From the NCBI GenBank assembly GCA_003216295.1, contig QCJB01000002.1, positions 62,001 to 126,000 on the forward strand: a stretch of DNA of 64,000 nucleotides. The letters are read 5' to 3'. Shown here piece after piece: positions 43,327 through 56,486 of this stretch. The position numbers and the translations under genes were made by a program. Source of the stretch: Prochlorococcus sp. AG-402-P16 (GTDB lineage: Bacteria; Cyanobacteriota; Cyanobacteriia; PCC-6307; Cyanobiaceae). The notes under the pieces are model-generated. The model saw only the letters and a program-made list of their open reading frames with translations, did no database searches and was not told where the DNA came from. Each line of letters begins with the position of its first letter. The stretch's first letter is position 1.

Positions 43327-43399
43327 TATTTTGAATAATTAGAAAATGACTAAAGCTTTGTTTAAAACTAATACATCAAATTTCAAATGATCTGTCACA

Positions 43400-43690
43400 A
43401 TGAGTATGTCCATTTTGCAATGGACTAGGTGATTCACACCAGTATCTCGGACAGCGGTTCGATTCCGCTCAGCTCCACTTCAAGGGGCTGCAATGGCTTC
43501 GACGGGGTATCAGGCGAGTGACTGAAGCCTGCTCGGTCAGAGCAAAACCATAACTGCTAACAACATAGTTAGTTTCTCCCGTCAAACAGCCCCTGTTGCT
43601 GCTTGATCTTTTTTCGGAGATGGGGTTAGATCAACCTTATTACCCAATTGATCCACGAGGCCTGCGAGGGCCTCACTTCTTTCCAGTAGA
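43400..43690 (+). ncRNA. ssrA: Two-piece (permuted) tmRNA
   Basis: The gene is circularly permuted. The 3' acceptor piece comes first: T-stem AGCGG/CCGCT at 43453-43469 with loop TTCGATT, then CAGCTCCA ending at 43477. Six bases later the 5' piece begins with GGGGCTGCAATGGCTTCGACGG at 43484; GGGGCTG pairs with CAGCTCC. The resume frame at 43556-43606 encodes ANNIVSFSRQTAPVAA-stop, very close to known Prochlorococcus tags. Further hairpins (GTCCAT/ATGGAC at 43408-43425; GAGGCC/GGCCTC at 43657-43674) mark both outer ends, which are approximate. It rescues stalled ribosomes and tags products for ClpXP-type proteases. Confidence 0.93.
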
Positions 43691-43885
43691 ACAAGTCTCA
43701 AAAAATCATAAAAATAAAGTTGTGGGAAAATCAAATAATTCTCTTAAAACAATTCTCAATAGTCTCAAAACTCAAGTGGCTTTTATCTAGTGGATTATGA
43801 AGTCAGGAATCTGAATAATTTTTACTAAGCAAGCATTCAGAATTTAATAATCCAATATAAATTCTCTCAGAACAAGAAAATTCAC

Positions 43886-46112: not shown

Positions 46113-47819
46113 ATGAGCAATACTAGTTATTACGAACAAATCAATACAGATCTTCTTGGAAGGATACCTTTAACAGCAAAGGTGGTTTTAGAAGTAGGCT
46201 GTGGTGCTGGTGCTCTTGGAGAAGCATATAAAAAAAGAAACCCTAAAGCACTTTACATAGGTATAGAGAACGAAAAAGAACCCTCTGAAATTGCAAAAAA
46301 GAGATTAGATCAAGTCATACATGGTAATGCTGAAATTGAAAATATTATGCCTCAAAAAATTCCTAAAATTGATTGTATTGTCTACGGCGATGTTTTAGAG
46401 CACTTAATCAATCCATGTGAATTAGTCAAGAGACAAGCAACGTATCTAAGAAATGGTGGTGTTCTTCTAGCTTGTATTCCTAATGCTCAACATTGGACAT
46501 TAATTAGGAATTTGTTGCATGGAAATTGGTTATTAGAAGATCATGGCTTATTTGATAGAACCCATCTCCGGTGGTTTACATATAAAAGTATTTTAAATCT
46601 GATTAAAAACGCAGAATTAGACCTTTGCGAGATTACTCCAAGAGTCTTTAAAGAAGATTTAAGAAAATGTAAAATTTTTCTAGAAGAAATTCAAGATTCA
46701 CTTCCAAAAATGGGAATAGAAAAAGAATACTTTTTGTCTAAAATAGCGCCATTTCAATATATAGTAAGAGCAACAAAAGGGAAAGAAGTAAATCAAACTA
46801 TAGATGTCAGAATTGGTAATGTCAAAGTAGAGGGGATAGTTAAATCAAGAGTTCTCGTGCCTATACAAGGTATGTTTAGTTTGCCGAAAAAAAATTTCAG
46901 AATAGGAAATTCATTAGATTTAATACAAGGGAAATCTGATCATCCAAAGATCACGGTTATTAGTAGACCAATACATTTACGTAGGGAAAATGATATTGGT
47001 CAAATCAAAAGACTAATTAATAATGATTATTTGGTGATTATTGATTATGACGATGATCCAAATATTATTCCTAAACAATATGAAGGATGGGATTTTACAT
47101 TTACTAGCGCCCATGGAATTCAAACAACCAACAAAAAACTTGCTAAGTATTTAAAAAAATTTAATCCTGAGGTTAAAGTTTTTCAAAATTCAGTTTTAGA
47201 AATAGGTCCAGAAAAAAAACCAATAAATTCTTCTTCTCTAAAAGTATTTTTTGGTGCTATTAATCGAAAAAAAGATTGGCAGCCATGGATTGAAACTCTT
47301 AATAATATTTTCTTAGAAATGCCAGAAAATTGGGAATTTGAAGTTATTCACGATATAGATTTCTTTAACTCTTTAAAATTACCAATCAACCGAAAAAGAT
47401 TCACACCCACTTGTCACTACCAAAATTATCTTGAAATAATGAAAGAATGTGATATTTGTTTTCTTCCATTAAATGATAATAATTTCAATAATTATAAATC
47501 TGATTTAAAAGCAATAGAAGCGGGGTCTTTTGGACTTGCTCTACTTGCATCACCAGTAGTCTATAATGAAAATTTTGAAAATAACGTAAACGCATCATTT
47601 TTTGATAGTGAAGAATCATTAAAAAATATATTAACTAATTGGATAAATAACCCACACGAAGTTAGAAGATTAGGAAAGAATGCACAAAAATATATAGAAA
47701 ATAATAGACTATTATGTTACCAATTAGATGAAAGACAGAAATGGTATACAGAATTGTGGGATAGGAAAAAAGAACTAACTAAGATGATTTTCAATAGAGA
47801 ACCAATTTTATTTGACTAA
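46113..47819 (+). CDS. SAM methyltransferase fused to a glycosyltransferase-like domain
   Basis: A 568-residue two-domain protein. Residues 1-225 form a class I SAM methyltransferase: VVLEVGCGAGALGEAYKKR (motif I), YIGIENEKEP, DCIVYGDVLEHL (motif post-II/IV) and LRNGGVLLACIPNAQHW, as in Methyltransf_23-type surface polysaccharide enzymes. Residues 280-565 resemble a GT-B glycosyltransferase C-terminal half: NDYLVIIDYDDDPNI and YKSDLKAIEAGSFGLALLASPVVYNE, where E and the following G match a GT4 nucleotide-binding E-x7-E region. Expected role: methylation and sugar transfer in O-antigen or S-layer-like glycan. It is flanked by non-coding gaps of 462 and 338 bp. Confidence 0.8.
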   Translation: MSNTSYYEQINTDLLGRIPLTAKVVLEVGCGAGALGEAYKKRNPKALYIGIENEKEPSEIAKKRLDQVIHGNAEIENIMPQKIPKIDCIVYGDVLEHLINPCELVKRQATYLRNGGVLLACIPNAQHWTLIRNLLHGNWLLEDHGLFDRTHLRWFTYKSILNLIKNAELDLCEITPRVFKEDLRKCKIFLEEIQDSLPKMGIEKEYFLSKIAPFQYIVRATKGKEVNQTIDVRIGNVKVEGIVKSRVLVPIQGMFSLPKKNFRIGNSLDLIQGKSDHPKITVISRPIHLRRENDIGQIKRLINNDYLVIIDYDDDPNIIPKQYEGWDFTFTSAHGIQTTNKKLAKYLKKFNPEVKVFQNSVLEIGPEKKPINSSSLKVFFGAINRKKDWQPWIETLNNIFLEMPENWEFEVIHDIDFFNSLKLPINRKRFTPTCHYQNYLEIMKECDICFLPLNDNNFNNYKSDLKAIEAGSFGLALLASPVVYNENFENNVNASFFDSEESLKNILTNWINNPHEVRRLGKNAQKYIENNRLLCYQLDERQKWYTELWDRKKELTKMIFNREPILFD

Positions 47820-48386: not shown

Positions 48387-48704
48387 TTATGACATTTTTG
48401 CAAATAAATCTTTGTGGTAGTCAACGACATTTTGACAACTGATTACAGGAGTAATTTCCATATCAATACCAAATTGAGCTCTCCATGGGGCAAAGTGTAG
48501 GAAGAGCTCCTTGTCACCATTTGCATTGCAGAGAATTACAACACGACCTTCTCCTGGTGCATGGACACGAAAAAGCATTTCAAATCCATCAAATTTATCT
48601 TGCTTAGACATCTCACCATTTTCCCAAAACTCCACAAATTGCTTATAAGCAGCAACTTGATTTTCAATATTAGGAAACTGGCAATCAACCAAATAGAGTT
48701 GCAT
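48387..48704 (-). CDS. Conserved hypothetical protein, DUF3303-like
   Basis: A soluble 105-residue protein: QLYLVDCQFPNIENQVAAYKQF, then KFDGFEMLFRVHAPGEGRVVILCNANGDKELFLHF and APWRAQFGIDMEITPVISCQNVV. The pattern of strand-helix-strand with short ferredoxin-like (dimeric alpha/beta barrel) spacing fits small dimeric proteins such as DUF3303, a tentative match. Two Cys and no catalytic signature are visible. ATG 48704 is the start. It converges with the SEWG protein. It is common in marine cyanobacteria, function unknown. Confidence 0.72.
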   Translation of the reverse strand: MQLYLVDCQFPNIENQVAAYKQFVEFWENGEMSKQDKFDGFEMLFRVHAPGEGRVVILCNANGDKELFLHFAPWRAQFGIDMEITPVISCQNVVDYHKDLFAKMS

Positions 48705-48865
48705 TGGTGATACGATAAAAACTAATTTTAGCTAGAAAAGCAAAAGAAATGATTCATATAGCGATCCATACACAAATCATGTTCTAAAAAGAAGACATAA
48801 TAATTATGAGCCAACCCATAAAAACGATTGATTGATCAAAAAAGATAAAGAATTCACAACCACAA

Positions 48866-49786
48866 ATGCACTTGATCTTTTCAATATCTAATCAACTTTT
48901 AAAGGCAAGCAGACCAAGACATTGGACAAAAAATCTATTAGTTTTTGCTGCTCCTCTTTTTAGTTTTCAGCTAGAGCTATTGATTTGGCTAAAATCATTG
49001 CAATCTCTTGTTTGCTTCTGTTTATTATCATCTGCTATTTATATATTTAACGATATTATTGATGCCCACTCCGACCGACTACATCCAATCAAAAAATATA
49101 GGCCAATAGCAGCTAAATTATTATCACCACAAATTGCATCAATATTTTCATTCATTCTAATTATCATCAGTTTATATCTAGGTTACTATGTATCAAATTC
49201 TCTTTTATTAATTCTATTAATCTATCTATCTATACAAATAAGTTACTGCCTAAAGCTTAAAGATGAGCCTTTATTTGACTTGATTTGCATAGCAAGTGGC
49301 TTTCTTTTACGGGCAATTGCAGGAGGAGTATCCTCAGATCTGATTATCTCTCCATGGTTTTTATTATCTATAGGTCTATTAGCCTTATTTCTTGCCTTAG
49401 AAAAAAGAAAAGCTGAGATGAGAAATATCAATATTAATTACTCGACAACTAGAAAAGTACTAAAAAGATATTCTTTACCACTGCTTTTAAGATTTGAAAG
49501 TCTTGTAGCAACAAGCTCATTTGTAACTTATTCACTATGGGCAGCTGGTCCTGCACTACAAGGAGCCAAAACAAGTTGGATGCTATTAACAGTTCCATTT
49601 GTTTTAATAGGAATTTTTCAATACCAATTACTTAGTGATCCGGATGAAGCTAATCGCAGAAATAATGGGACTTCAGTTCGAACAGCAGAAAATCCTGAAG
49701 AAATTCTTCTCAAGGATAAAGGTATACGTCTTACAATCATTATTTGGTTGATCTCCACAATATTTATTGGCTTAATTACTACATAA
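48866..49786 (+). CDS. ubiA: Polyprenyl-phosphate phosphoribosyltransferase (UbiA family, Rv3806c-like)
   Basis: Predicted to transfer phosphoribose from PRPP to a polyprenyl phosphate, giving polyprenyl-P-ribose-5-P, the first step of the DPA pathway. The 306-residue protein has 8-9 membrane helices. The first Asp-rich motif is NDIIDAHSDRLHPIKKYRPIAA, and the second reads DLICIASGFLLRAIAGGV. Both are close to those of the mycobacterial DPPR synthase and differ from the quinone and chlorophyll branches of UbiA. It starts a four-gene block with short gaps. The start is ATG 48866. Substrate is inferred from the neighbours and motif similarity. Confidence 0.85.
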   Translation: MHLIFSISNQLLKASRPRHWTKNLLVFAAPLFSFQLELLIWLKSLQSLVCFCLLSSAIYIFNDIIDAHSDRLHPIKKYRPIAAKLLSPQIASIFSFILIIISLYLGYYVSNSLLLILLIYLSIQISYCLKLKDEPLFDLICIASGFLLRAIAGGVSSDLIISPWFLLSIGLLALFLALEKRKAEMRNININYSTTRKVLKRYSLPLLLRFESLVATSSFVTYSLWAAGPALQGAKTSWMLLTVPFVLIGIFQYQLLSDPDEANRRNNGTSVRTAENPEEILLKDKGIRLTIIIWLISTIFIGLITT

Positions 49787-49795
49787 TTCTTCGAT

Positions 49796-51382
49796 ATGAG
49801 CATTGCAGTATTTGATGTAGACAGAACTTTACTTGAGGGGGACGCCCTTTTATTAGCCGCAAGAAAATCAAATAGCAATGCTAAGCTTCTTTGGCTCAGT
49901 ATAAGTTTCTTGCCTTATTTAATTTTATGGAAACTCAAAATTCTTACAACGCAAAGAATCAAAGAAATATTTATAAATAAATTTAAAATTTGTGATAGAT
50001 ATAATATAGAAACAAAAAGAAATAATCAAGACTGGTTAATTAATGATTTAAAAAAAATGATAAGGAAAGAAGCATTAATTAGACTAGATATGCATAGAGA
50101 AAAAGGTGACATTGTTGTATTGTGCTCGGCATCTCCAGATATGATACTTAATCCATTAGCGAAATCATTAAATGTTGATCTTATATGTACTAATTTAGTC
50201 AAGCAAGAAAATCAATGGCTACCAAAAATTATTGGTAAGAACTGTAAAGGTAATGAGAAGTTAAAAAGACTAGAAGATAAATATGGATTAATAAAAAATC
50301 AAAAATTAGAAGTTTACGGAGATAGCAATGGTGACAAAGAGATATTAAATGCAGCTTCGATTCCTCACTACCGAGATTTTTCTGATCTACCAAAAGAATA
50401 TCCCACATTCTCGTTCAACTCAATAATTCCAATCATTGGATTTACCTTTTTATTTTATCTAATAATTAATAATTTCGGCAAATATAGTACTCCAGAAAAA
50501 GAATGGAATGACATTTGGATAAATATTTTAACAGGAGAGATTTTAATCATAACTAGTTACCTTATAAGATTTTTTAGGTGGAAAATCATCTTAAAAAAAA
50601 TTAATTTAAATCCACATCCGATTCAAAATTTTTATATCTGGATGGGATCATTTGCTTTTACTGCAACCCCAGGGAAAGCGGGGGAAGGAATTCGAGTTAT
50701 AATGCTAAATAAGGAGTGTAATTTACCTATTTTTGAAACAACTTGTGCACTTCTGGTGGAAAGATTAACTGATATAATTGCTATTTTAATAATATTGATA
50801 TCTAATTTAAATTTACTCCCAAATATATATTACAAGAATATTATTACTTTTGTCTTCATGATAATTATTACTATAAGTTTACTTATTATTTTTTTTGTTA
50901 AGAGAAATCTAATCAAAAATATTGCATTATTTATCATTCGAAGATTTTATCCAAATAAAATAGTGCATCTAAATAATTTAAATATTGTAAAACTTCTTAT
51001 ACACCCAAAAAATATAACTATTGCAATAATTCTTGGATTAATTGCCTGGGTTTTCGAAGGTATCAGCCTTTTAATTATATTAAAAGGCTTTAATTTCTCA
51101 ATAAGTTGGCTTGGTTGTACTTTTGCTCATACAACTTCAGCTCTAATTGGTGCCTTGACATTGATGCCTGGAGGTGTCGGACCTACCGAGGCAAGTACAA
51201 TAGGACTTTTATCTTTGCAAAGTATACCCTTATCAATTGCAACCTCTTCAACTTTATTAATTCGTCTCATGACACTATGGTTTGCAACTTTTCTAGGATT
51301 CATTTGTCTAATATTAAATAGCTATATGTTTAGAAAAAACTCTTTAGCATATAGAAATCAATCCAATAATCAAATCAATTGA
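49796..51382 (+). CDS. HAD phosphatase fused to flippase-like membrane domain (UPF0104/LPG synthase TM)
   Basis: Two domains in 528 residues. Residues 1-205 are a HAD-IB phosphatase: nucleophile motif FDVDRTLLEGD, motif II CSASPDMIL and motif III YGDSNGDKEILNAA. Residues 215-520 have 8 or more membrane helices of the UPF0104/AglD2 type with KAGEGIRVIMLNKE and LMPGGVGPTEAS motifs, like lysyl-PG synthetase membrane domains and glycolipid flippases. In the pathway this could remove the 5-phosphate from polyprenyl-P-ribose-5-P and move the product across the membrane. It follows the UbiA gene by 9 bp and overlaps dprE2 by 4 bp. Both activities are inferred. Confidence 0.85.
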   Translation: MSIAVFDVDRTLLEGDALLLAARKSNSNAKLLWLSISFLPYLILWKLKILTTQRIKEIFINKFKICDRYNIETKRNNQDWLINDLKKMIRKEALIRLDMHREKGDIVVLCSASPDMILNPLAKSLNVDLICTNLVKQENQWLPKIIGKNCKGNEKLKRLEDKYGLIKNQKLEVYGDSNGDKEILNAASIPHYRDFSDLPKEYPTFSFNSIIPIIGFTFLFYLIINNFGKYSTPEKEWNDIWINILTGEILIITSYLIRFFRWKIILKKINLNPHPIQNFYIWMGSFAFTATPGKAGEGIRVIMLNKECNLPIFETTCALLVERLTDIIAILIILISNLNLLPNIYYKNIITFVFMIIITISLLIIFFVKRNLIKNIALFIIRRFYPNKIVHLNNLNIVKLLIHPKNITIAIILGLIAWVFEGISLLIILKGFNFSISWLGCTFAHTTSALIGALTLMPGGVGPTEASTIGLLSLQSIPLSIATSSTLLIRLMTLWFATFLGFICLILNSYMFRKNSLAYRNQSNNQIN

Positions 51383-52128
51383 GTAAAAGATCTTATAAAC
51401 AAATTCACAGTGCTTTTGTGTTAGGAAGTACAAGTACAGTAGCAAAAGCTATATGTATAGAACTTGCAAAAAATCATAACTGTAAACGATTTCATTTAGT
51501 TGCGAGGAATAAAAATTCTAATCATGAATTAACTCATAGATTAGAAACTTCATTCGATGCATTAGTCACAGAAGAAATAGTTGATTTAATAGATAGCTCT
51601 AGTCTTACAAGTTTGAATATACCAAAAGTAGACAATTATGAACTTTATATAATAGCTGCAGGTTCACTAGGAAAAGCAGAGCTTGCAAGAAAAGATATCA
51701 AAGAAGCTTTAGAAATTACAGCAGTAAACTATACAGGTATAGTAACTTGGATTACTTCAATAGTGACAAAAGAGCGCATTTCACAAAAAGGAATGTTGTG
51801 GGTTTTTTGTTCTGTTGCTGGGGATAAAGGAAGACCAAGCAACTATCATTACGGTGCAGCAAAGTCAGCCCTGTCAACTTTTTGTGAAGGTCTATTTCTG
51901 AGATGTCAAGGTAGACCCTTTTCAGTGCGAATTATAAAAGCAGGATATATAAATTCACCCATGACAAAAGGAAAAGTACCTAAATTACTATGCATTGATC
52001 CAAGGACTGTTGCAAAAATTCTTCTTAAAAAACCTAATCGACGTGGGACCGAATATCTACCATGGTGGTGGACCTTGATTATGTTTATTGTAAAAATTAT
52101 GCCTCATTCAATAATATCTAAGCTATGA
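51379..52128 (+). CDS. dprE2: DprE2-like 2-ketoribose reductase (short-chain dehydrogenase)
   Basis: A 249-residue SDR predicted to reduce polyprenyl-P-2-keto-erythro-pentofuranose to polyprenyl-P-arabinose with NADH. The Rossmann motif FVLGSTSTVAKAI is at about residues 13-25, and the catalytic set is CSVAGDKGRPSNYHYGAAKSAL (Ser, Tyr and Lys in S-x...Y-x-x-x-K), close to Rv3791. The C-terminus is a hydrophobic helix (WWWTLIMFIVKIMP). The start is TTG 51379, overlapping the previous stop by 4 nt. Its ATGA end overlaps dprE1. Best supported by co-location with the oxidase. Confidence 0.85.
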   Translation: MSKRSYKQIHSAFVLGSTSTVAKAICIELAKNHNCKRFHLVARNKNSNHELTHRLETSFDALVTEEIVDLIDSSSLTSLNIPKVDNYELYIIAAGSLGKAELARKDIKEALEITAVNYTGIVTWITSIVTKERISQKGMLWVFCSVAGDKGRPSNYHYGAAKSALSTFCEGLFLRCQGRPFSVRIIKAGYINSPMTKGKVPKLLCIDPRTVAKILLKKPNRRGTEYLPWWWTLIMFIVKIMPHSIISKL

Positions 52129-53513
52129 ATTTAATTTTAAAAAAAAATTACCCTAGGAAATTTAATAAAATAAGTGGTTGGGGCAAAACTAAAGCTGTAG
52201 ATGTGGAAATAATCAACCCTAAAACAATAAGAGAAATTCAAGATATTATTCGCAATTCCCATCCAAAATCGATCATTGCAAGGGGAGCAGGAAGATCATA
52301 TGGTGATGCAGCGCAAATCAAAAAAGGGAAAGTATTGAAATTAGAAAATTTCAAAGAAATTTTTCCTAATTATATAAATAATGAAGTTACGGCTCAAGCT
52401 GGGGCTTCATTTGAAGAAATTCTGAGAAAGATAATCCCTAGAGGTTTTTTTCTACCTGTAACACCTGGAACAAAAAAAATTACATTAGGAGGTGCAATAG
52501 CTGCAGATGTTCATGGGAAAAATCATCATCGAGATGGAAGCTTTGGGGATTATGTTAAAAGAGTTATCCTTATTGATGGGAATGGTAAAAGAATCACTTT
52601 AAGTCCATATAAAGAAGATAATTTAGAAATAAATGAACTATTTTGGGCAACAATAGGAGGAATGGGTCTAACTGGAATAATTATTGAGGCTACATTTTCA
52701 ATCATTCCAATTCAAACATCATTTATCAAAGAAGAAACTAATCGTTTTACAAACTTAGATGATTTAATGAAAGAAATGATCAGATTGGATGATCAAAATA
52801 AATATAGCGTCGCATGGATTGATAGCATGAATAACAATTTCAGAGGGATACTGAGCCGGGGAAATCATGCTACGAAACAGGAAATTAAGAAGTTAAAAGA
52901 TATAGATTATTTATCTTTTAATCCACATCCATTTACAAAAATTCCCCGCTTTATACCAATTAATTTAATGAATAGACAATTTGTAAAAATATTCAACGAA
53001 TGGTGGTTTCGAAAAACACCTATTAAAATAGTCAAAAGAATCATAACTATAGAAAAGTTCTTTTATCCGCTAGATGCAATTGAAAATTGGAATAATATTT
53101 ATGGTGTGAATGGATTTATTCAATATCAGATTATTGTGCCTGAAACATGTCGTTATATGATTCGAAAAGTCTTAGAGAAATTAAATCATATTAATGCTTG
53201 CAGCTTTTTACCAGTCTTAAAAAGGCTAGGGAAATCTAATAAGAGTTATTTATCATTTCCATCAAAGGGATGGACACTATCAATTGATCTACCAGCGAAT
53301 AATCAAAAAATCGACAAGTTATTAGAAGAACTTGATCAAGAAATAATAAAAGTTGGAGGTAAACTTTATCTTGCTAAAGACGCAAGACAATCTGATAGTA
53401 CTTTTAAAAAAACTTATAAATCACTAGATACTTGGCAGAAGAATAAAAAAATATTAGACCCAAACTGTATATTCATATCAGATATAGCTAATAGATTAAA
53501 AATATGCAATTAG
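52125..53513 (+). CDS. dprE1: DprE1-like FAD-dependent polyprenyl-P-ribose 2-oxidase
   Basis: Oxidises the 2-OH of polyprenyl-P-ribofuranose, the first half of the epimerisation to arabinose. The 462-residue protein matches Mycobacterium DprE1 in length. The FAD motif is RGAGRSYGDAAQ (about residues 53-64), and the covalent/flavin region PGTKKITLGGAIAADVHGKNHH follows. The active-site Lys in LYLAKDAR is at residue 418, the same number as in M. tuberculosis. The segment GWTLSIDLP has Ser386 where Mycobacterium has Cys387 (WNVCVDFP). It ends FISDIANRLKICN. It overlaps both neighbours by 4 bp. The substrate is inferred. Confidence 0.9.
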   Translation: MNLILKKNYPRKFNKISGWGKTKAVDVEIINPKTIREIQDIIRNSHPKSIIARGAGRSYGDAAQIKKGKVLKLENFKEIFPNYINNEVTAQAGASFEEILRKIIPRGFFLPVTPGTKKITLGGAIAADVHGKNHHRDGSFGDYVKRVILIDGNGKRITLSPYKEDNLEINELFWATIGGMGLTGIIIEATFSIIPIQTSFIKEETNRFTNLDDLMKEMIRLDDQNKYSVAWIDSMNNNFRGILSRGNHATKQEIKKLKDIDYLSFNPHPFTKIPRFIPINLMNRQFVKIFNEWWFRKTPIKIVKRIITIEKFFYPLDAIENWNNIYGVNGFIQYQIIVPETCRYMIRKVLEKLNHINACSFLPVLKRLGKSNKSYLSFPSKGWTLSIDLPANNQKIDKLLEELDQEIIKVGGKLYLAKDARQSDSTFKKTYKSLDTWQKNKKILDPNCIFISDIANRLKICN

Positions 53514-55006
53514 TGTATATTTATTAAATATGAACTATCATGATTGGTGCAACCATTTGATTCCGTATCTAGTAAATAAGGGTCTGAACAGATTAATTTG
53601 ATCAACTTACTTTTAACATTTTTATCCTTAAATTTATTATAACTTTCAATCACTTCCCAACTACCGGCAATATATTTTGCTCCATCATTTTTCCATTCTA
53701 AAATCTTTTGATCATTTATAGATATTGGAGAAACTAACCAACCCTTCCTATCTGAGAGATATAGCAAAGTAGGATCTCCACCTGTAACAGAAATAATAAG
53801 ATCTGATTTCTCTGTATTCCTTTTAATCATCTGAGCTGTTGCCCAAACTGGTTGTCGTATAGGGTCCTCCATATCCCAATAATCGATCTTTAGCATAAGC
53901 AAGCTCGCAACAAATAATAAGCTAATGAATATTGTAATAAAAGCTTTCTTTTTATATAAATTATTTTTTAATCTTACAAACCCAAGGCCCATTAAAGGAC
54001 AACTAAACAGCATTATAGGAAGCTGATAATATTCATGAATTGCAAAAGAGCTAGGATTGATAAATCCAGTTAATAAAACTGATAAAATACCAACTATAAA
54101 AATATTATTAATTGCTAGCTTTTGAATTGAGAAATAAATCGGTACAATTCCAATAATAAGAAAATTCCTAAATATTATTCTGAATAAAAGGTCCAAATAA
54201 AAACGCAATTCTAATAATGTTAACCAGGAGTACCTATCAGTATCCGAACCCCAGAGACCAAAAGTTAATCCTGTTGATTGACCAAGTTTATATGAATATG
54301 AATACCAAAAGAAACTAATTAAAATTGTTAGTATAGGGAATATATACAATTTGTATTTAAAAATTAATGACCTTTGGTATGCGCTTATCAATATAGGAAT
54401 ACCTATCCAAAATAATGGTAAAACCTTAATTAATACTGCTAATGTAAAAGATATCCAAGATGCTATTAGAAAAAATTTATTATTAATTTTAAGAAATTCA
54501 ACCCACCTCTCTAATGAGAAAATGCCTAGAAATATCATTAATGATTCTGGTTGGATAGTTCTACTATAAAAAACAGAGATTGGTAGAATCGCATAAAAGA
54601 ATGTTCCCCACCAGGCAACTTCAACATTAAAAACTCTTTTTGTTAATCTAAATAAGAAGTATAATGTTAAGCATCCAAATATTACCGAAAGTAGTCTGGC
54701 AAATATTTCATTAACTCCAAATAACTTATATAAACTTGCTACTAAATATTGATATAATGGAAATTCACATTCAACCAAACCATTAGTTGAACCAGACCAA
54801 TTTACTTGTGGCTGAAAAAAATTTAAGTTGGTAGAGAGAAAGTTTTTTGCTATTGATGCAGTATCAGCTTGGCGCCAACTATGAATTCCTATTACTGGTG
54901 CATTAATATTGATTAACCTTATAAATAAGCCAATTAATATAATTGGCCAAATAGAAAAATTACCTAATAAATTATATAAACTTAAACGAAAATTTCTATA
55001 AATCAT
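53510..55006 (-). CDS. GT-C family lipid-linked sugar glycosyltransferase (ArnT/PMT-like)
   Basis: A 498-residue membrane glycosyltransferase with about 10-12 helices. The first loop after helix 1 is INAPVIGIHSWRQADTASIAKNF, with acidic D residues and QAD that resemble the GT-C metal and donor-binding loop (DE/DD-type). FFYAILPISVFYSRTIQPES follows. A C-terminal soluble domain has SDRKGWLVSPISINDQKI and possible disulfide Cys (LICSDPYLLDTESNGCTNHD). Family members use a polyprenyl-phosphate sugar (for example undecaprenyl-P-arabinose). The convergent position beside the polyprenyl-P-pentose genes makes it a likely user of that donor. It overlaps dprE1 by 4 bp. Confidence 0.8.
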   Translation of the reverse strand: MIYRNFRLSLYNLLGNFSIWPIILIGLFIRLININAPVIGIHSWRQADTASIAKNFLSTNLNFFQPQVNWSGSTNGLVECEFPLYQYLVASLYKLFGVNEIFARLLSVIFGCLTLYFLFRLTKRVFNVEVAWWGTFFYAILPISVFYSRTIQPESLMIFLGIFSLERWVEFLKINNKFFLIASWISFTLAVLIKVLPLFWIGIPILISAYQRSLIFKYKLYIFPILTILISFFWYSYSYKLGQSTGLTFGLWGSDTDRYSWLTLLELRFYLDLLFRIIFRNFLIIGIVPIYFSIQKLAINNIFIVGILSVLLTGFINPSSFAIHEYYQLPIMLFSCPLMGLGFVRLKNNLYKKKAFITIFISLLFVASLLMLKIDYWDMEDPIRQPVWATAQMIKRNTEKSDLIISVTGGDPTLLYLSDRKGWLVSPISINDQKILEWKNDGAKYIAGSWEVIESYNKFKDKNVKSKLIKLICSDPYLLDTESNGCTNHDSSYLINIH

Positions 55007-55054
55007 ACTAAACCTTTTTTATTAGAATAGTTGATCCTCCTAGAAAACAACAAA

Positions 55055-55228
55055 TTAGCCAGGTGAAGTAAAGAATCCATTTGAAAATAAAAATAAGCAC
55101 ATAAGAACTAAAGGACCCACACCAAATACAAAAAGAACAATTTTTGCATTTCTTGGACTTGTTGTTTTCTCATTAGTGGAATAATTTATCTTAGAATTAA
55201 TTTTATTCTTTGTTTTTTTACCAGGCAT
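55055..55228 (-). CDS. Small single-helix membrane protein (57 residues)
   Basis: A 57-residue frame from ATG 55228 with a Lys/Asn-rich start (MPGKKTKNKINSK), then a short linker and one helix (AKIVLFVFGVGPLVLMCLFL), ending SNGFFTSPG. It sits between the GT-C gene and the GT4 gene, on the same strand, with 48-bp and 193-bp gaps. The basic N-terminus gives a clear inside-positive anchor. Similar tiny Prochlorococcus proteins exist in my memory, but I cannot name a family or function. Confidence 0.6.
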   Translation of the reverse strand: MPGKKTKNKINSKINYSTNEKTTSPRNAKIVLFVFGVGPLVLMCLFLFSNGFFTSPG

Positions 55229-55421: not shown

Positions 55422-56486
55422 TTAATCCATTTCCTGAATAATTTTTTCTATTTCGCGAGCAGTGTCAAACCAATTAAAAGAGGCGGCTCGTTGAGGTCCT
55501 TGATTGAGACATTCTTCAAATATGTTTTTATCGTGAATAAGCACATTCATCGCAGAGGCAATTGATTCAATGCTTAGTGGATTAATCAAATAGCCATAAT
55601 CACCCATAACTTCTGGAAGCGCTCCTCTGTTAGAAGCTATTACTGGAGTACCACAAGCCATTGCCTCAAGAGCTGGAAGACCAAATCCTTCCCAAAGACT
55701 GGCAATAATTAATCCTTGACATTCATTTAATAATGATAATTTTTCATTATCATCGATCCAACCTTTCCATTCACAACAGCTTTGAAGATTCAGTTTATTA
55801 ATAAGTTTCAAAAGTCCTGGTGTATACCTTCGATCAAATGAGCCAACAAAAACAATCTTGTAATCATAAAGTTTAGCTAATGAAAATGCTTTTATAACCC
55901 TTTTCAAATTTTTATGCGGATTATGCCTGCCAATAATGAGAAAAAATTTCTTTCTATTTTTTTTTATGGGATAATATTGTTTATTATTAAAACCTAATTT
56001 AATTGGAAATAATTTTTTCTTGGGTACTTTATAGAACAAAGATAAGTCATTAGCCGTCGAAATAGAATTACATAAAACAACATGAGATTGTTTTAAAATT
56101 AATGGAATATAAATTAAATGATATAAAGTTAAAAATGATAGAGAAGGATATCTTAATGGTATCAGATCATGAGCCAAAACTATAGATTTGACATTGGTAA
56201 ATAATGGTGCCTCTAATAAGGGAGAGAAAAAATATTTAGAGTTTAATTTTTTCATGATTTTTGGTACTGATTTTTGAAGCCAGTACAAACGCCTAAAATG
56301 ACTTACAAAGCCATTGCCTGGCGAAAGATTATTAGGAATATAAATATCACCGACCATCCCCACACCTTGTGGAATAAGTGTAGTAATTTTTTCAACAGAC
56401 ATTGAATTTGCAAGGTCTCTAGAAACCACTCCTATGCCGGTATTTTTTTGAGTTATATAGCTCCCATTAAAAACTATAGATGACAT
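55422..56486 (-). CDS. GT4-family glycosyltransferase
   Basis: A 354-residue retaining glycosyltransferase of the GT-B fold. The C-terminal half shows [25 protein letters not shown] (start of donor domain), [64 protein letters not shown] (E-x7-E and GTPV nucleotide-sugar site). The N-terminal domain begins [20 protein letters not shown], typical of mannosyl or related transferases. No signal peptide. The sugar is not predictable. It is divergent from the 56535 gene and is probably part of the surface glycan cluster. Confidence 0.9.

Follow-up and report, generated by a model that had tools for sequence, protein, structure and literature searches.

Which sugar does a picocyanobacterium make with a cluster of genes that resembles the mycobacterial pathway for lipid-linked arabinose, and what becomes of that sugar? 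The question is raised by positions 48866 to 55006 of a 64,000-nucleotide stretch (the window; C2:62001-126000) from Prochlorococcus sp. AG-402-P16, whose 1.59-Mb genome (51 contigs, 83% complete) is labelled G000 here. The picocyanobacterial label fits, and relatives within the family include Cyanobium usitatum. D-arabinofuranose (D-Araf) is best known from the walls of mycobacteria. The initial annotation read this region as a polyprenyl-phospho-arabinose operon, and we consider it probable that the genes form a self-contained cassette that makes, flips, and attaches D-Araf by a route of the mycobacterial type; the sugar, the donor used by the glycosyltransferase, and the acceptor are what we infer. 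The five genes are the following.

48866..49786, + strand, predicted UbiA-type polyprenyl-phosphate 5-phosphoribosyltransferase (DPPR-synthase family), 306 amino acids (aa)
49796..51382, + strand, fusion of a predicted HAD phosphatase (aa ~1-205) with a flippase-like membrane domain (aa ~206-528)
51379..52128, + strand, DprE2-like short-chain dehydrogenase/reductase (SDR), predicted 2-keto-pentofuranose reductase, 249 aa, TTG start
52125..53513, + strand, DprE1 flavin adenine dinucleotide (FAD) oxidase, by homology, 462 aa
53510..55006, - strand, GT-C integral-membrane glycosyltransferase of the PMT_2 family, proposed pentofuranosyltransferase, 498 aa, convergent

The layout described in the initial annotation is borne out. 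All five reading frames are intact in the window; the first four genes run in one direction, with a 9-bp gap and then overlaps of 4 and 4 bp, and the glycosyltransferase gene is convergent, sharing 4 bp with the 3' end of the DprE1 gene. A promoter scan was uninformative (23 sites observed versus 41.5 expected).

Predicted enzymes for making and flipping a lipid-linked pentose

In the first step, the UbiA protein would move 5-phosphoribose from phosphoribosyl pyrophosphate (PRPP) onto a polyprenyl phosphate, probably undecaprenyl phosphate, to give polyprenyl-P-ribose-5-P. The genome also encodes a member of the polyprenyl-diphosphate synthase family (PF01255). Sequence comparison argues strongly that the protein is a DPPR-synthase-type enzyme. 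It passes the NCBIfam model NF008978 for decaprenyl-phosphate phosphoribosyltransferase (238.1 bits, cut-off 207) and stays under the cut-offs of the sister models NF008977 (213.8, cut-off 234) and NF008976 (200.1, cut-off 474). A PDB sequence search at E 0.1 returned only two entries, 8j8j (E 4e-43) and 8j8k, both decaprenyl-phosphate phosphoribosyltransferase. The motif NDIIDAHSDRLHPIKKYRPIAA noted earlier in this protein is present, and all 11 of the mapped Mg- and PRPP-binding residues of Rv3806c are identical (R22, K28, Y70, N73, D77, D81, K87, R90, Y138, K143, and K208); the roles of ten are taken from PMC10994848, and that of D81 via the equivalent D255 in PMC11127046. The genome encodes three other UbiA proteins. 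In a tree of 69 rows built by a quick method, the 66 DPPR-type rows stand apart from these three (Shimodaira-Hasegawa-like approximate likelihood ratio test, SH-aLRT, 96), whose end branches are ~9-10 in length, and the separation leans on the scores as much as on the tree.

After dephosphorylation, DprE1 (FAD oxidation at C2) and DprE2 (reduction) would convert polyprenyl-P-ribofuranose to polyprenyl-P-D-arabinofuranose, presumably in the cytoplasm. Structure-database matches favor both names. The strong PDB matches of the oxidase are all DprE1 (4aut, E 1e-83; 285 bits against the best solved DprE1), with other oxidases beginning at E 6e-9, and the best match of the SDR is DprE2 (21gq chain C, E 6e-14). 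Of 12 selected DprE1 positions, putative FAD and substrate residues, ten are identical (R58, Y60, G117, H132, K134, L317, Q334, Q336, K367, and K418). The YG..K (Y-x3-K) motif of the SDR occurs in 30/30 family DprE2 loci scanned. Scores and trees thus place UbiA and DprE1 with DPPR synthases and DprE1 proteins, respectively, and not with quinone or chlorophyll enzymes or unrelated oxidases, the placements that the initial annotation had named as fatal to its pathway assignment.

The second gene was described as joining a HAD phosphatase to a flippase, and both domains were identified (PF12710 for HAD; PF03706/TIGR00374, LPG_synthase_TM, for the membrane part). Residues D7, D9, K155, D176, and D180, which we take to be the HAD motif residues, are invariant in 18 aligned fusions. 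In the predicted model (pLDDT 81, pTM 0.54, with the relative placing of the two halves unreliable), the HAD part resembles 3fvv and SerB-type phosphatases and the membrane part resembles MprF (9goe, 7duw, and 7f47). A PHROGs search with four of the five cassette proteins yielded only a marginal match, to the HAD part. On the best reading, the HAD domain is a phosphatase that would remove the 5'-phosphate, and the MprF-like domain is a flippase that would turn over the lipid-linked pentose.

Co-occurrence across 400 genomes of the family fits this division of labor. DprE1 was detected in 31 of them (E 1e-30, the window counted); DprE2 adjoins it on the same strand in all 31, and UbiA lies within 5 kb in 30, the one miss being at a contig end. 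A search profile built from the fusions at DprE1 loci matched 30 of the 400 genomes at E 1e-40, and 24 of these matches are full-length: 23 in the 31 genomes with DprE1 versus one in the 369 without (Fisher p ~1e-29, kinship uncorrected). Two layouts recur. The window type is UbiA-fusion-DprE2-DprE1; the second adds to UbiA, DprE2, and DprE1 an extended SDR, a PRK07233-family FAD oxidase, and often GtrA, and in many cases has a fusion farther away. Among the other family cassettes at L060-L084 (e.g., L060:10424-13081), the extended SDR occurs at 14 loci, the PRK07233 FAD oxidase at 17, and GtrA at 10. A further kind of cassette, at L085 in genome G338, comprises a HAD-UbiA fusion, GtrA, DprE1, and DprE2; in the trees, both its DprE1 and its UbiA fall among non-family rows.

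The support for the proposal differs by step. Family relationship and active-site conservation point to the phosphoribosyl transfer and the epimerization; fold, domain fusion, and co-occurrence are consistent with the phosphatase and flippase roles; and for the final transfer by the glycosyltransferase, the evidence is co-inheritance and fold.

Donor of the glycosyltransferase and identity of the sugar

The convergent GT-C protein would pass the pentose to a periplasmic acceptor. Pfam gives PMT_2 only (PF13231, E 4.5e-10), and a PDB sequence search gave nothing below E 0.4. The predicted model (pLDDT 85.5, pTM 0.88) resembles oligosaccharyltransferase subunits, ArnT (5ezm), AftA (8if8), and EmbB at about 10-13% identity, a fold match that gives the enzyme class and not the donor. 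The claim in the initial annotation that the pentose is used through this enzyme is thus favored indirectly, by the fold and by the gene's place in the same presence/absence block (below).

Several observations weigh against the pathway as proposed. For the glycosyltransferase, it is conceivable, although we judge it unlikely, that the four donor genes act as proposed while the GT-C protein uses another lipid-linked sugar and an enzyme encoded elsewhere draws on the arabinose. GT-C relatives occur in 74 of the 400 family genomes (E 1e-15), 60 of which lack DprE1. Six GT-C loci away from a cassette (L211-L216) were inspected and ten neighbor proteins scanned; one source genome, G116, has DprE1 elsewhere. 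At two of these loci a GT2+GtrA fusion gene, likely a hexose-donor enzyme, adjoins the GT-C gene, and other neighbors are a DegT aminotransferase (one locus) and two further PMT-type proteins (one locus). In our reading, different donor modules feed one GT-C subfamily. Where membrane proteins adjoining other cassettes were compared, most resembled neither the window GT-C nor each other, and a single GT-C partner common to all cassettes is not supported. There are five tight orthologues (>850 bits, the window included). The one in genome G029 has neither an adjoining cassette nor DprE1, but the other three (G015, G038, and G067) adjoin DprE1, as in the window, and in the window the gene lies inside the block; this argues for an arabinose role of the GT-C protein. 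A 193-aa open reading frame (ORF) with a resolvase domain (PF00239; L211:7417-7998) lies 2 kb from the G029 orthologue, and a similar-looking 193-aa ORF (L029:17419-18000) occurs on the contig of the window, ~17 kb beyond the window's right end.

As to the acceptor, we found no direct evidence for the outer-membrane or O-antigen glycan of the initial annotation. An O-antigen-like acceptor is possible, because one Wzy_C-family gene is present elsewhere in the genome. None of nine scanned proteins in and around the cassette is a pilin.

A second alternative, which we regard as improbable, is that a polyprenyl-P-pentofuranose is made but the final sugar is not D-Araf (e.g., ribofuranose or a 2-keto product), DprE1 and DprE2 having drifted in substrate or function. 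By curated cut-offs the pair are not members of the equivalog families: the window DprE1 scores 454 bits (E 7e-136) on NF053785, under the cut-off of 500, and the SDR scores 101 bits (E 6e-29) on NF053786, under the cut-off of 250. The DprE1 of a relative, G031, clears the former with 519 bits. The window DprE1 also has Thr at N385 and Ser at C387 (window residue 386), the latter position presumably the benzothiazinone adduct site of M. tuberculosis DprE1. In 28 of 29 other family DprE1 loci read, Thr or an equivalent residue occupies position 385, and position 387 carries Ala in 26 and Ser in two; in the 29th, L085, the motif could not be located. Because these loci are likewise changed, the substitutions appear to be a family trait and not decay of the window copy. 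Sequence, context, and most of the residues mark the two proteins as DprE1/DprE2 homologues. Their joint presence in every DprE1-carrying genome, the ten conserved positions, and the omega values of both genes (omega, the ratio of nonsynonymous to synonymous divergence, 0.14-0.25) argue against such drift.

The alternative sugar also draws on genome G305 (listed as 100% complete), where the genes for UbiA (61% identical), the fusion, and a 407-aa protein (~7 hydrophobic helices) follow one another; DprE1 is absent from the genome at E 1e-5, and neither DprE1 nor DprE2 was found in the 20 kb read. This is the arrangement expected for a ribofuranose system, and by its gene content G305 is a natural ribose-type variant of the module. 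Together, the fusion and this epimerase-less variant render the flippase assignment testable.

The remaining difficulties concern the fusion. Eight of the 31 DprE1 genomes lack it in full; among them, the gene is cut by a contig end in G116, only HAD is matched in G300 and G330, and G338 carries HAD on UbiA. Partial matches occur in three more genomes without DprE1 (a broken fusion gene in G258, and the flippase part only in G086 and G166). The 20 kb read of G067, in which the other cassette genes are present, contains no HAD match.

A presence/absence block and its history

The cassette lies between two conserved genes and corresponds to a stretch that is missing as a whole from relatives.

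48387..48704, - strand, conserved 105-aa gene, left flank, outside the cassette; 90-97% identical orthologue in 17 relatives (20 genomes searched)
48800..55051, no strand, presence/absence block; cassette-less relatives lack the whole stretch and have 30-89 bp at its place
55422..56486, - strand, conserved GT4 glycosyltransferase, right flank, outside the cassette; in 8/8 cassette-less loci read

Flanking genes were sought in 20 of the 41 genus genomes, and in 17 of the 20 the 105-aa gene and an ATP-binding cassette (ABC) transporter gene were near each other. Their spacing is 2,332-2,376 bp in 14 genomes and 8,488-8,554 bp in three (G000, G015, and G038). At seven of eight cassette-less loci read, DNA similarity to the window breaks off near 55,051-55,071 and is picked up again near 48,800, the two points being 30-89 bp apart. 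The block is also absent from the eighth, G029, where the site is rearranged and no ABC gene was detected. The block thus comprises hardly more than the five genes, which are present or absent as a unit. The GT4, ABC transporter, and 170-aa genes were considered as cassette parts and rejected, as they occur in 8/8, 7/8, and 8/8 cassette-less loci, respectively.

DprE1 proper is present in five of the 41 genus genomes. At E 0.001, 36 genomes gave a match, but in 31 the only match scored 22-32 bits, which we took as another FAD oxidase. In G015 and G038 the block encodes proteins 61-83% identical to those of the window. G031 has an empty site at the block position and another cassette elsewhere in its genome. 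In genome G030 (L028:3357-4752), DprE1 is split over two frames while the UbiA, fusion, and DprE2 frames are open, which could be a broken gene or an assembly error. Outside the genus, the order of GT4, GT-C, DprE1, DprE2, and UbiA is preserved in G067, but the fusion gene is missing.

A tree built from two flanking proteins puts the seven empty-site genomes in one group (91/96), and the carriers and G067 fall outside it. The flank tree needs a single change, and most simply one loss explains the empty sites, although the flanking genes may have travelled along with the block. In three pairwise comparisons among three genomes, omega is 0.08-0.25 for the five genes, and synonymous divergence (dS) is 0.84-1.34 for the cassette genes versus 0.78-1.20 for two flanking genes (values near 1 are imprecise). 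Low omega and co-inheritance as one block place the cassette well beyond chance. With intact frames, low omega, and dS like that of the flanks, it looks old at the site and maintained; a recent arrival is disfavored by the dS values and by the flank tree. That the cassette is a passenger island with no present function, in decay or newly acquired, is very improbable given those same frames, omega, and dS values, although the patchy distribution in the genus and the split G030 gene could be cited for it.

Relation to known systems and origin

The chemistry is known from mycobacteria and from Kelly et al. 2024 (PMC11127046); what is new is the host group and the HAD-flippase domain fusion, which none of the systems compared here shows. 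New as well are the inheritance of the five genes as one presence/absence block, the constant adjacency of DprE2 and DprE1, the co-occurrence of the fusion together with the G305 variant, and the grouping of DprE1 with Actinomycetota. No report of such a pathway in cyanobacteria was found in open-licence PMC literature, judging by titles and abstract openings, and the string "cyanobacter" occurs 0 times in the main text of PMC11127046.

With the mycobacterial decaprenyl-P-arabinose pathway (Rv3806c, Rv3807c, DprE1, DprE2, Rv3789, and Emb/Aft) the cassette shares homologous UbiA, DprE1, and DprE2, and the enzymes that act on the acceptor are GT-C proteins of the same fold class. Mycobacteria use the phosphatase Rv3807c and the SMR-type Rv3789 (roles as given in PMC11127046), whereas in the cassette HAD is fused to an MprF-like flippase. 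In the cassette the lipid is probably undecaprenyl, and the arabinan polymer belongs to the mycobacterial pathway.

The three-component pentofuranose systems of Citrobacter youngae O1 and O2 (Kelly et al. 2024, PMC11127046) consist of a UbiA-type synthase with a HAD phosphatase, a flippase, and a GT-C enzyme; epimerase genes are add-ons, and DprE1/E2 homologues are named for Araf-containing glycans. The cassette likewise has a UbiA-type synthase, HAD phosphatase, flippase-type protein, and GT-C enzyme in one cluster, the HAD domain being compared at the level of the family. C. youngae has a HAD-UbiA fusion and a separate MATE flippase, whereas in the cassette HAD is fused to the PF03706/TIGR00374 MprF-like flippase.

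Alphaproteobacterial plasmids of Rhizobium sophoriradicis, Azospirillum thermophilum, and Paracoccus sp. AK26 also carry UbiA-family, DprE1-like, and SDR genes together (with one gene between in Azospirillum), near large hypothetical proteins, two of which in Rhizobium have ~7 hydrophobic helices. These cassettes differ in having a separate GtrA gene, in the HAD domain fused to UbiA (by Pfam, Rhizobium only), and in a DprE1 that falls in the other half of the tree.

For another Gram-negative bacterium, Pseudomonas aeruginosa PA7/Pa5196, Harvey et al. are said to have described D-Araf glycosylation of pilin in 2011 and to have proposed a polyprenyl-P-D-Araf donor route. The cassette resembles that system in that such a route is proposed for a Gram-negative cell; the acceptor there is the type IV pilin.

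The history of DprE1 is suggestive of transfer from Actinomycetota. In a tree of 67 rows (quick method), 28 of the 29 family rows cluster with the window (99). Six Actinomycetota rows, several of them with titles that point to lakes or estuaries, join this cluster to give a group of 35 (99), which lies within a half of 51 rows (100) that is rich in Actinomycetota. The other half holds 11/11 other cyanobacterial rows, the one family row left over (G338), and four proteobacterial or Bacteroidota rows. In the UbiA tree, the group of the window with 27 of 28 family rows (97) has two of eight other cyanobacterial rows as its sister (97), followed by Actinomycetota, and the cassette may be mosaic in origin. 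The Actinomycetota rows come from a scan with a profile of picocyanobacterial proteins that kept the 80 best of 580 relatives, with a single cyanobacterial title among them; this sample is biased toward Actinomycetota, which makes the transfer a suggestion. Across the phylum, DprE1 was detected in 16 of 386 genomes drawn, five of them from the family. A genome scan with the window DprE1 alone gave 27 pattern matches and no relative.

The fusion could act as a committed gate through which a modular surface-sugar system of picocyanobacteria exports its product, a tentative picture that we hold to be possible but doubtful. UbiA and the fusion alone would yield ribofuranose, addition of DprE1/DprE2 would yield D-Araf, exchange of the GT-C enzyme would redirect the sugar to another acceptor, and the block, with a DprE1 from Actinomycetota, would be a surface polymorphism plausibly selected by phages or grazers. 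The link to phage receptors is a suggestion only. A search for DprE1 in viral contigs gave 40 pattern matches, none confirmed, and among 50,697 phage records UbiA was detected in one, from human faecal samples at 32% identity, with no link to cyanophages.

Two further features lie to the left of the cassette. At window positions 46113-47819, a protein joins methyltransferase and glycosyltransferase domains, and no similar ORF was found in the read stretches of L026 and L027. A transfer-messenger RNA (tmRNA) gene is located at 43388-43697, ~5 kb from the cassette, and the stretch between the two is only partly common to the two other carriers.

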